Source: Balneolaceae bacterium (GTDB lineage: Bacteria; Bacteroidota; Rhodothermia; Balneolales; Balneolaceae). From it: DNA of 64,000 nucleotides. The first letter of the stretch is position 1. Every line of letters starts with the position of its first letter. The stretch spans positions 25,683-89,682 of the forward strand of contig JAFIFB010000044.1 in assembly GCA_020832285.1 (NCBI GenBank), in the 5' to 3' direction. Positions 1,269-64,000 of this stretch are shown here, in pieces. A program made the position numbers and the translations under genes. The notes beneath the pieces are model-generated. The model saw nothing but the letters and a program-made list of their open reading frames with translations, had not been told where the DNA came from and did not search any database.

Positions 1269-1440
1269 AAAATAAGAAAAGAATAAATATTAGATACCTC
1301 AGATACGGATCGGTATCGGGGGTATCTTCTTTACCTTCCTATCTCAATTTCCGAAAAAAGGCGATGTAGTGACTGCAAAATAAAGTTCATTTAAAAGTGA
1401 TTCTGGTTTCTGGTTTAAAAAAAATGTTATGAGCGTCTCG

Positions 1441-1604
1441 CTTGTGCTTTTCAAGGGCTCCTGGCAGAGTCGCGACGCTCTGCTCTGAAATGCCTTAAAG
1501 CCAACCAAGCCCACAATCCACAACTCACCGAAGTATCGGTGTCTTCGACTTGCAGGAACTTTGCTCCACGCTATGTACTCTGTCAGGTTGTTTATTTCAA
1601 AAGT
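1441..1604. repeat. ~160-bp dispersed structured repeat, copy 1
   Basis: Near-colinear match to 46630-46790 (CTTGTGCTTTTCAAGGGCTCCTGGCAGAGTCGCGAC ... CAGGTTGTTTATTTCAAA). Confidence 0.85.
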
Positions 1605-2036
1605 CTAAAACACGAACACCGCTGCGCAATGATCATGGGTTACAGACATGTCGCACCTCTGGTGCTATCTTTGCCTGAGTCATTTGGAATCATTTCTTTT
1701 TTGTATCCAGAGTCCGAAAATGCCATCCGCAGGCAGATTGGAATGGAAGGAAGAACAGGAAGCTTGACCAGTTATTAAAAGAGTACTTCTCAGGACAGGC
1801 GAAGAATTTTTGCACGCTTGCACCACCGTAGTTTTATGCAAAGGAGAGCTATTTTTGATTCTGCCATGGGCATGTCATTGGCAAACGAAGCTGAGGGGAA
1901 AATTCTGTATGGAAACATGCAGTGAGAACCTGTTTGTGGACCTGTATCAAAGAAACTTTGTGTGGGTTAATTCCCGCAGATCCCGGCAAACACGAGTTGT
2001 CCGGTGAAAACGAATTTTACGATTTAGTCCGGGCAT

Positions 2037-6264: not shown

Positions 6265-8010
6265 TTATCCCTGATTTTGTCGTTTCGGTCGCCTGGGCTT
6301 TTTCGATTTGCCGTTGGATGAATTTCTTTGATTCCCATTCTGGTCATTGCTGGAGTAATAATCAAGGGTTTCTGCTCCTTTCTCTTCCAGTTCAAATCCC
6401 CTCACCTTTTCCTGATGTGCTTCCAGGATCTCTTCAAGTGGCTGCCCTTGCAGAACAACATCGGTAATTTCGAGATCGGAACCGGCCAGTGTGGCTTTAA
6501 ATTCATTCAGTGATGTGGTTTCATCAGAAATAAAGGATATTCTGATTTTGTATTTCAACATCCATCTCCAGCGCTGGCTGAAAAACCCTTTGCAGAGGAA
6601 CGAACGCAGGTATGGGTTTACATAGATGTCAACAGCACGATAGTCTGTGGAATATTTGAATTTGCTGATCCAGCTTTCCACATCGGTAACGATAGTATCC
6701 TGACTGACGACATTTCCTGAGCCACCACACATCGGGCACACTTTTGAAACCGAATTTACTACACTCGGACGTATTCGCTGGCGGGTAATTTGTACCAGTC
6801 CGAAATCGCTCATCCCGATAACATTCGTTTTGGCCTGATCTTTTTTAAACTCTTTTTTGAGTTCATCATAAATTTTCTTGCGGTTCTTGTTGTCGCGCAG
6901 ATCGATGAAATCCACTACGATAATCCCGCCTATATCTCTTAACCGGAGCTGCTTGGCAATTTCCCGTGCGGCCTCGAGATTGGTTTTCAAAGAGTTGTCT
7001 TCCTGTTTCTCTTTAGCAGCATAGGGTCCTGAGTTTACATCCACTACATACATCGCCTCGGTCTGTTCAAAAATCAGGTATCCGCCCGATTGCATCCTCA
7101 CACGCGGGCTGAAGATGGAGTTCACATCCTGGCCGATGTTTACATGATCGAAAATATGGTCCCGGCCTTTATAGAGCTGAACCGCAGGAAGCATTTTAGG
7201 TGCAATCTGAGAAACATAGCTTTTTACCGATTTGTAAAGCTGGTAGTCGTCAATCAGCACTCTGTCATACTGTTTCGCGAAGAGATCACGGATAAGACTC
7301 TCGGTAATATCAAGGTCTTTGTATAGCAGGGAAGGGGCTTTAGACGTTTCCAGCTTATTGAGGATGCGTTCCCATTTTTTCAGAACTGTGCGCATATCTT
7401 CTTCGATGGCCTCTTTGTCCTGCTTTTGTGCCACTGTACGAATGATAACACCAAATCCTTCGGGCAGCATGGAGCCAACGGTGCCTTTTAGCCGTCTGCG
7501 TTCACGGTTGTTGGTAATTTTTTTCGAAATTGCGATGTACTGTCCCATCGGAATCAGAACAAGAAAACGTCCAGCGATAGTAATATCGGTCGATACACGC
7601 GGACCTTTTGATCCAATCGGTTCTTTCACGACCTGAACCAGCAGGTTCTGATTATTTTTGAGCATTTTTCCAGCAAGGATCTGCTTATCGTTGTTCGAAA
7701 GCTTGTCGAACTTTTTCAGATCTTCTTTGGCTGAGTTGGGAATGCTTTTTTCACCGTTGAGCATCATAAGGTAAGGGCCGAGATGGTCTCCGGCATCTGA
7801 GAAGTGGAGGAAGGCATCTTTTTCCATGCCAACATCGATAAAGGCGGCACGTATGCCACTCATTACTTTATGAACCCTTGCGAGGTATATATCTCCTACG
7901 GTGCGCTGGTTATCCTCTGATTCGATGAATAACTGTGCTAATTCTCCGTTTTCTAAAAGTGCTACACGGGTCTGTTTGCCCGAGGAATGGATGATGATTT
8001 GATTCTTCAT
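6265..8010 (-). CDS. rng: Rne/Rng family ribonuclease
   Basis: S1-like N-term GDIYLARVHKVMSGIRAAFIDVG, VVDFIDLRDNKNRKKI, zinc motif CPMCGGSG. Confidence 0.93.
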   Translation of the reverse strand: MKNQIIIHSSGKQTRVALLENGELAQLFIESEDNQRTVGDIYLARVHKVMSGIRAAFIDVGMEKDAFLHFSDAGDHLGPYLMMLNGEKSIPNSAKEDLKKFDKLSNNDKQILAGKMLKNNQNLLVQVVKEPIGSKGPRVSTDITIAGRFLVLIPMGQYIAISKKITNNRERRRLKGTVGSMLPEGFGVIIRTVAQKQDKEAIEEDMRTVLKKWERILNKLETSKAPSLLYKDLDITESLIRDLFAKQYDRVLIDDYQLYKSVKSYVSQIAPKMLPAVQLYKGRDHIFDHVNIGQDVNSIFSPRVRMQSGGYLIFEQTEAMYVVDVNSGPYAAKEKQEDNSLKTNLEAAREIAKQLRLRDIGGIIVVDFIDLRDNKNRKKIYDELKKEFKKDQAKTNVIGMSDFGLVQITRQRIRPSVVNSVSKVCPMCGGSGNVVSQDTIVTDVESWISKFKYSTDYRAVDIYVNPYLRSFLCKGFFSQRWRWMLKYKIRISFISDETTSLNEFKATLAGSDLEITDVVLQGQPLEEILEAHQEKVRGFELEEKGAETLDYYSSNDQNGNQRNSSNGKSKKPRRPKRQNQG

Positions 8011-20239: not shown

Positions 20240-20379
20240 TAGTGTCGTGTCAACTGTGAAAGTGTGAGTGAGTCATCAGACGAGTCGATCCGGGATCATC
20301 CCAATCATCTACATTGGTATATTTTTTGAAAAACTCGTCAGATGACTTAACCCGACGTTTTATCTTTGACATAACACTA
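20240..20379 (+). repeat. MITE-like hairpin element B
   Basis: TIRs TAGTGTCGTGTCAA / TTGACATAACACTA; internal IR GTCATCAGACGAGT / ACTCGTCAGATGAC; near-identical inverted copy at 63867-64000. Confidence 0.88.
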
Positions 20380-20445
20380 GGTGACCCTACTTAGGGGCAG
20401 TGGGTGCTGACAGGTTTCGATCGACATTTCATATTTGATACGACA

Positions 20446-20957: not shown

Positions 20958-21027
20958 AGCCTTCTATTTTGTTGTGTTGTCTTAATATATAAATTATCAA
21001 CGATAAAATAACAGGAAGCATATTTAT

Positions 21028-21159
21028 CCCGCATTTCTCACCAAGAAATTTAGTTGTGGGCAATCCCGACAGTAGTCGGGAGAAAATGGTTGTGGAAACT
21101 TTCCTGAGTATGAGCAAGCCATTTCAGAGACAACGCATCCGCCTGAGGCGGAAAATTTC
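21028..21159. repeat. REP-like interspersed repeat, copy with internal insertion
   Basis: Shares ACCAAGAAATTTRGTTGTGGGCAA and CCATTTCWGAGACAACGCATCCGCCTGAGGCGGAAAATTTC with reverse complement of 37841-37918. Confidence 0.8.
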
Positions 21160-21482
21160 ACAACATCTGACAAGGTGTTTTAGTACTATCACTGAAAATG
21201 TAGGTTAAGGCTTTAATAATCAAATTGATAGATTTATTCATATTTTTTTTGAGTACCGAGCGAAGCGATTCCCGTGAAACGAAATGAGGTCATACCTATT
21301 CAATGGATAAGCCTTCAATAGCATGCATTAACGCCACATCTGGTGAATATCCGGTCAAAAGTTTCTATTCAAACTAATTTCCTTGTATTTTCATTTTATG
21401 GATTATAAAAATATAATAACCCTCGACCATTCCAGCTCACAAATCCTGAGGATTATTCCTTTCAAAGCAACAACAGAAGAGC

Positions 21483-37638: not shown

Positions 37639-37840
37639 AAAAACATATTATCATATTTATGACTAAATGTATATTTTTTTCAAGAGAAATAAAAGCGGAA
37701 ACCGGAAGTTTAATTCTGCCATTAACTTTTTAACCTGCATTATTCACAAAAAAATAAATGATTGGTTTTATCGCTATGTATATGAGTAACTTCTATCAGA
37801 CAAAGATTAAAACTTTATTCAACGTATTGTCACGTACTGC

Positions 37841-37918
37841 GAAATTTTCCGCCTCAGGCGGATGCGTTGTCTCAGAAATGGTTTGCCCACAACCAAATTT
37901 CTTGGTGAATAATGCAGG
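37841..37918. repeat. REP-like interspersed repeat, short copy (inverted)
   Basis: Reverse complement matches 21040-21159 minus ~55-bp insertion. Confidence 0.8.
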
Positions 37919-37946
37919 TTAGATTTCATTAAAATGCTTTTACAGA

Positions 37947-46055: not shown

Positions 46056-46629
46056 ATCTCGCTTGTGACACCCTTTATGTGTCTTGGTACTGGTCTACTT
46101 CGCCACCCACTACGTTGAAACTTCGATGGTCAGGAAGGCTACGCAGACTGGAGGTGCGGGATACTGGGTACTGGATTTATCAACCCCAGATCCTTTGCGC
46201 TCGTTGCGCTCTTTGCGATTACCCTCCTGCCCGAACATTGGCCTGTACCTGATTTAAATCGAGCCACCCAACTGGCAAGAACCGCAGAAGTACCTGCCTC
46301 TCAAATAAAATTGAACATCTAACCTCCGATTTAAACCGATGTTTTTCATAAATCGAGCCGGAGGTTTTAGGTTTTGGTCTTCCTCTTGTCCCCGGGTTCC
46401 GCAAAAGTACTCCACCCGGGGCTATTTGATGGCCGCCCGCTTTGGGGCTAATTCAGGGGTAAGCACCAAACTATATGCAATGTGTTGGATCTTGCCATAA
46501 TATCGAATATCGATCCATCGAATATCGAGTATCGATTAATCGTTATCCGGGGATTTCAAATCTAAATGAATGGGAGGTCTTTGACCCAAGCGACCTGCCC
46601 TAAAGGGATCGCTGTGCGACAAGAGTTCC

Positions 46630-46790
46630 CTTGTGCTTTTCAAGGGCTCCTGGCAGAGTCGCGACACATTGCTCTGATATGCCTTAAAGCCAACCAATCA
46701 CTCAATCCACAACTCACCGAAATAACGGTTTCTGCGACTTGCAGGAACTCCGCTTCGCTAAGTACTCTGCCAGGTTGTTTATTTCAAAGT
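46630..46790. repeat. ~160-bp dispersed structured repeat, copy 2
   Basis: Matches 1441-1604; perfect 11-bp inverted repeat CCTGGCAGAGT (46649-46659) / ACTCTGCCAGG (46764-46774). Confidence 0.85.
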
Positions 46791-63453: not shown

Positions 63454-63866
63454 AAGTTTGTCAAAAATACGACTTGTCGTGATTTCTTCACATTTCCCCT
63501 CTCAAAGAGGAGATTGTAAGGCCACCACTTCAATTTAGCAAAATAATACCTGATGGTTCGTAAACTTTTCCTTGATAACGCATGCATCCCGCTTATGCCC
63601 TATAATTCAAGTTCCGAAAAATGGCGATGAAGTGGCTACAAAAAAATGAAAAATTACTTCCATATTTCAGATTTCCACTAAATAAGAATTGTGAAAATAA
63701 TAAATTATGAATTTCAATATGTGGAAATTGTTTGAGAAATTTTTTAACAGGCCTTGAATCGGTTGGCGGGAACAGGGTGTTTTCAGCGACGCTATGGCAG
63801 CATTTTATACCGGCTGGATCTTTGATTATGGGCAATGAGTGTGATGGACCATTACCCCGCGGTTCC

Positions 63867-64000
63867 TAGTGTTATGTCAAAGATAAAACGTCGGGTAAGC
63901 CATCTGACGAGTTTTTCAAAAAATATACCAATGTAGATGATTGGGATGATCCCGGATCGACTCGTCTGATGACTCTCTCACACTTTTACAGTTGACACGA
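63867..64000 (-). repeat. MITE-like hairpin element B, inverted copy (runs off window)
   Basis: Reverse complement differs from 20240-20379 at about four positions including one indel. Confidence 0.88.

Follow-up and report, generated by a model that had tools for sequence, protein, structure and literature searches.

There is a good body of work on REPINs, BIMEs and REPtrons (PMC3116915, PMC2817692, PMC3733652). A published survey of RAYTs, the REP-associated tyrosine transposases, found by eye that some of those from Bacteroidetes are flanked by atypical structures (PMC6006769). Here we analyse a repeated non-coding block in a 64,000-nucleotide stretch of DNA (the window) whose host is a Rhodohalobacter-like member of the Balneolaceae. 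We are confident that the block is a REPIN, an inverted pair of REP hairpins, and that it is the non-autonomous substrate of a cognate RAYT encoded elsewhere in the genome between copies of the element, an arrangement known as a REPtron. This reading accounts for a class of repeat that at first resembles an unknown RNA.

A dispersed family of inverted hairpin pairs

The two copies of the block in the window (copy 1, 1438-1601; copy 2, 46627-46788) are non-coding and 88% identical, a similarity far beyond chance (E about 1e-54). The first-pass annotation had correctly noticed that the block recurs about 45 kb away, and had counted two copies; the blastn search that it proposed, run on this and related genomes, reveals a much larger family. 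In the organism's own genome (5.33 Mb in 130 contigs), BLAST returns 40 matches to the block, full or partial, and with a covariance model of the REP unit the count is 62 at E<=0.001 and rises to 82 at E<=1, or some 60-80 units overall. Close matches to the window element are confined to 3 of the 59 genomes searched, namely its own genome and those of two congeners.

The aligned copies follow one plan: a left hairpin, then a spacer, then a right hairpin. The left hairpin is laid out as AGCGACCTGGCAGAGT, an apical stem-loop and TCCTGGCAGAGTCGCG, and the right hairpin as CCACAACTCTTGCAGG, a loop and ACTCTGCCAGGTTGTT. Once the right hairpin is reverse-complemented, it and the left hairpin prove to be the same unit, which makes the element an inverted doublet. 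The same organization holds across the genome, where the unit model finds neighbouring units inverted in 21 of 22 adjacent pairs. Gaps from a left to a right unit measure 41-44 nt in 9 of 14 pairs and those from a right to a left unit 5-6 nt without exception, so that the arrays alternate as in BIMEs. REPINs are multicopy and intergenic, and some form tight arrays by themselves. The intergenic gaps around them are convergent in 8 cases, tandem in 13 and divergent in 2, a weak bias, and their lengths are near background.

Copy 1 opens with a truncated left unit (1441-1474, plus strand) that consists of the apical stem-loop and the 3' arm only (CTTGTGCTTTTCAAGGG-CTCCTGGCAGAGTCGCG); complete units elsewhere begin AGCGACCTG..., a 5' arm that is absent here. 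A 43-nt spacer containing GCCTTAAAGCCAACC follows (1475-1517, plus strand), which is alike among copies of this genome and different in other species. The right unit, CCACAACTC...CTGTCAGGTTGTT, is the left unit inverted (1518-1592, minus strand), and it matches the unit model weakly (E 0.85) because of a 23-nt hairpin insert (1527-1549, plus strand). This insert is common to the right units of copies 1 and 2 and is present at five loci (L001-L005), whereas most copies lack it and carry an uninterrupted CACAACTCTTGCAGG. Copy 2 has a complete left unit (46589-46663, plus strand, with a unit-model match at 46615-46663 on the same strand), the 5' arm of which contains an insert module of about 24 nt (CCTAAAGGGATCGCTGTGCGAC). 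Alignment of the copies places its 43-nt spacer at 46664-46706 (plus strand), and its right unit (46707-46781, minus strand, with a minus-strand model match at 46738-46773) bears a hairpin insert of the copy 1 kind.

These anatomies revise the original outline, in that the block falls short of the whole unit: copy 1 is without the 5' arm of its left hairpin, and copy 2 has that arm, starting at 46589. The outer stem first proposed for the block was quoted with the right sequences, coordinates and complementarity, but it joins one arm from each of two inverted units, and the hairpins that covary lie within the units. Similarly, the inner hairpin CACCGA-AGTA-TCGGTG lies for the most part within the 23-nt insert and so belongs to some copies only.

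A RAYT gene between copies of the element

On contig C125, three elements bracket an open reading frame: two precede it and a third follows, all three sharing one orientation, and both sides have complete elements. The frame reads as a RAYT of 213 residues whose codon 49 is a single in-frame TAG (positions 7184-7186 of locus L042, minus strand). Orthologues have W, Y or F at this codon, and the closest has W; the gene is therefore either broken or misassembled at a single base. Pfam gives the protein no name and its Y1_Tnp model does not match it; the best match in the PDB is E. coli TnpA-REP (4er8, E 7e-4). The sequence is too divergent for Pfam Y1_Tnp, and the cognate RAYT came to light only when the DNA that separates copies in an array was read. 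The presence of the family on either side of a RAYT gene, together with its amplification between genes, supports the mobile element that the first-pass annotation had listed among its possibilities.

Seven genes of this genome that do match Pfam Y1_Tnp were considered as carriers and rejected: when the arms of the element were blasted against the seven loci, no copy was found, with a divergent look-alike at L034 only, and a full reading of three of these loci (L033-L035) shows other palindromes. RAYT-like genes elsewhere in the genome (L130, L131, L033 and L034) each adjoin palindromic repeats of their own, and the gene at L130 has a copy of CCCTCCAAGGGTTTCAAACCCTTGGAGGGTTT within it.

RAYT orthologues and matching elements across the genus

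A search of 28 genomes of the genus turned up relatives of the RAYT in 18, the close ones sharing 48-72% amino-acid identity. All ten intact orthologues tested match the NCBIfam model for REP-associated tyrosine transposases, NF047646, at scores below its curated cut-off (best E 2.4e-14), and five of the ten give weak matches to Pfam Y1_Tnp. Both catalytic signatures are invariant among orthologues: the HUH motif NH.H (N54-H55-x-H57) and the tyrosine motif CYIH.NP (C143-Y144-I-H-x-N-P).

We read the flanks of 15 RAYT loci in 13 genomes. The genus has orthologues in 12 further species, and the elements that flank them share the architecture but not the sequence, the two-hairpin plan being written in other letters, such as CCTGTCAGC...CTGACAGCGTCGG or CCTTCAAGCG...CCTTGAAGCGTGGCGG; two of the flanking sites are truncated or degenerate. 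At 13 of the 15 loci, the upstream and downstream flanks have a direct repeat in common, with bit scores of 57-345 against a maximum of 28.3 among 200 random controls. Left units and reverse-complemented right units are also more alike within genomes than between them (permutation p 0.005).

Scanning with the covariance model detects REP units in 24 of the 28 genomes of the genus, with hundreds of matches. Genomes with a close RAYT have a median of 12.2 units per Mb and those without one 2.8 (p 3e-4, and p 0.02 among the more complete genomes), a comparison that is somewhat circular because the model was trained on units flanking RAYT genes. Beyond the genus, a RAYT of the Rhodothermaceae (L208) shows the exact unit pattern, as one locus of the Bacteroidales (L217) perhaps does, and the remaining out-of-genus RAYT loci tested have other repeats or none.

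Surrounding repeats and the sister species

The first-pass annotation described the flanks of the two copies as unrelated. They do differ from each other, but rather than unique DNA they are other dispersed repeats. To the left of copy 1 lies repeat module A (1336-1447, plus strand) and to its right repeat module B (1585-1780, plus strand). The left unit of copy 2 is adjoined and overlapped by a larger non-coding repeat, module X (46181-46626, plus strand), a 430-bp sequence for which this genome yields 24 matches and the sister species, G017, yields 4; these are the two species in which it is found. These modules contain several hairpins and are combined around REPINs in varied ways; at locus L092, module B comes after module X, with a short hairpin replacing the REPIN.

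Could the composite of modules A and X, REPIN and module B be the mobile unit, with the REPIN as a passenger or internal hairpin? The recurrence of the modules around REPINs in several combinations is in keeping with this idea, as are the junction of X and B at L092, which has no REPIN body, and the fact that the entire 730 bp at copy 1 differs from the sister species. We nevertheless consider it unlikely. Many REPINs, among them the ones beside the RAYT gene, are without X or B, and REPINs also make up tight arrays on their own; moreover, X is limited to this species and its sister, whereas the association of REPIN and RAYT extends across the genus.

We also sought a clean empty site in G017, covering the loci of both window copies and that of the RAYT gene, and found none. 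At the copy 1 locus, where the flanks have 93% DNA identity, 160 bp of unrelated sequence replaces about 730 bp, and the copy 2 locus is rearranged, which explains this outcome. At the RAYT locus, G017 has kept a REPIN, interrupted by a MITE-like insert of about 260 bp, and no RAYT was found beside it.

Several further repeats were observed. One element with inverted ends CCCGCATTTCTCACC...GTGAGAAATGCGGG is present in the window at 21022-21173 and 37731-37924, and again at about 1745-2005 of L189; a copy in G017, about 260 bp long, splits a REP unit and has a CTAT duplication at its borders. The window also has two segments of some 130 bp each, at 20245-20381 and 63865-64000, that lie inverted and 43 kb apart with 96-100% complementarity, the second reaching the end of the window. 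Half-REPINs fused to one repeat (CTCTTCAGAAAATTCAGTACTT...TCATAAATCGTTCAATCATAACG) occur at L055, L056, L046, L044, L045 and L031 (G017), with junctions mostly at about one position, which suggests a recurrent composite.

Covariation within the hairpin

Thirty-two aligned units from the genus form a hairpin of 12 pairs with a one-base bulge. Paired cells amount to 94.5% in this alignment, against 30-45% when it is slid, and cells with double changes number 69 where shuffles lead one to expect 22. The invariant letters form a basal stem, CNAC on the 5' side and GTNG on the 3' side, with the C present in 29 of the 32 units; this stem stands at the hairpin foot instead of the canonical 5' GT[AG]G tag, which is absent. 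G-U pairs make up 2 of about 363 paired cells. Across these units the hairpin is maintained by compensatory changes, and copies of the element number in the dozens.

A stable predicted fold with covariation might also be expected of a dispersed structured RNA, regulatory or terminator-like, that is selected for its RNA fold, and an element that sits in intergenic, mostly tandem or convergent gaps could be transcribed within 3' UTRs. The first-pass annotation had entertained such an RNA, but we regard it as very improbable. The Rfam scan of the window, judged at the gathering score, reports a tRNA alone and no match for the block; the covariation is almost purely Watson-Crick, unlike that of typical RNA helices; and sequence, spacer and insert modules change between species while the link to a gene for a single-stranded-DNA transposase persists. 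The near absence of G-U pairs is what one would see in a DNA hairpin and speaks for recognition as DNA rather than for a structured RNA, although, the sequences being related, this is an argument and not proof.

Still less credible is a MITE of a DDE transposase, despite the inverted ends, small size and intergenic amplification of the element. The gene that it flanks, in 13 species, is of the Y1 HUH type; at the loci that were read, no DDE gene was seen within the flanking elements, nor could a target-site duplication be recognised. We reject this reading on the end sequences and the associated gene. On the same grounds we dismiss, as having practically no likelihood, an array of integron-type attC recombination sites, although the elements are imperfect palindromes of 150 bp and some are arrayed a few hundred bases apart: here the 3' end is GTTGTTT and not GTTRRRY, the 5' end is AGCGACC and not RYYYAAC, and the arrays contain no series of cassette ORFs. 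A dispersed or decayed gene, another of the initial suggestions, is unsupported and was also rejected, as the copies are pairs of non-coding hairpins whose differences break the reading frame; the indels had already been taken, rightly, as evidence against protein coding.

Discussion

Our analysis points to a REPIN family and its RAYT, and by analogy with described systems we infer that the enzyme transposes the element. If it behaves as TnpA-REP and the known RAYT family do, this Y1 HUH enzyme would bind the foot of the hairpin in single-stranded DNA; its tyrosine would then cut and rejoin at the foot, as in other RAYTs, so that the doublet is moved or copied, and REPINs would thereby spread into intergenic DNA. 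Given the stop codon in its own RAYT, the family in this genome is probably now static and decaying. The REPIN system here looks recently disabled, and truncation of the left unit in copy 1 would be in line with a decaying family.

The material assembled here comprises 15 RAYT loci and 32 aligned units, and within one genus it includes hundreds of matches to the unit, spread over 24 of 28 genomes. It yields a consensus and a covariance model, along with natural pairs of enzyme and substrate. As these pairs differ in sequence, recognition by each RAYT of its own REP can be tested by swapping them.

The family consists of RAYT-associated REPs in the broad sense, but not of canonical GTAG REPs, and is a variant of the REPtron/REPIN theme. 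More tentatively, and with rather more doubt than conviction, we raise the possibility that it represents a further REP superfamily, defined by a basal stem of reversed polarity (CNAC/GTNG), a one-base bulge and an inverted pair spaced, in this genome, by 43 nt. Such REPs would be read by a clade of Balneolota/Rhodothermia RAYTs without the conserved tryptophan that known RAYTs have near the tag-recognition region, and tag recognition may have been reinvented there, co-evolving from species to species.

The closest parallels are the REPINs and REPtrons of E. coli and Pseudomonas fluorescens SBW25 (PMC3116915, PMC2817692), which share inverted REP hairpins with a spacer, an intergenic location, clustering near a Y1 HUH gene and one REP family per RAYT. 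Unlike those REPINs, the present ones lack the 5' GT[AG]G, have the CNAC/GTNG stem with its one-base bulge and a 43-nt spacer, and carry hairpin inserts in some copies. Among classified enzymes, subclass 2.6 of TnpA-Y1, the Bacteroidetes RAYTs with 'atypical secondary structures' (PMC6006769), resembles ours in its long HUH-to-tyrosine distance (87-89 residues here), its tyrosine motif of the YIH.NP type, and flanking repeats that are without GT[AG]G and have copies elsewhere in the genome. The motifs of that subclass are NH[LIV]H, WQ and YIH[QN]NP with an HUH-to-tyrosine distance near 82, whereas those seen here are NH[FIY]H (consensus NHFH), no clear W, and YIH[RK]NP (consensus YIHRNP) with 87-89, and on these sequences our RAYT is not placed with confidence in a published subclass. 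The 'double foot' REPs of subclass 2.4 (PMC6006769) also have complementary tetranucleotides, GTNG and CNAC, at the hairpin ends, but in our units the polarity is reversed, with CNAC on the 5' side and GTNG on the 3' side. Finally, CGTC-tagged REPs (PMC3733652) are likewise palindromic intergenic repeats; they have no associated transposase of any kind, whereas the family described here has one.
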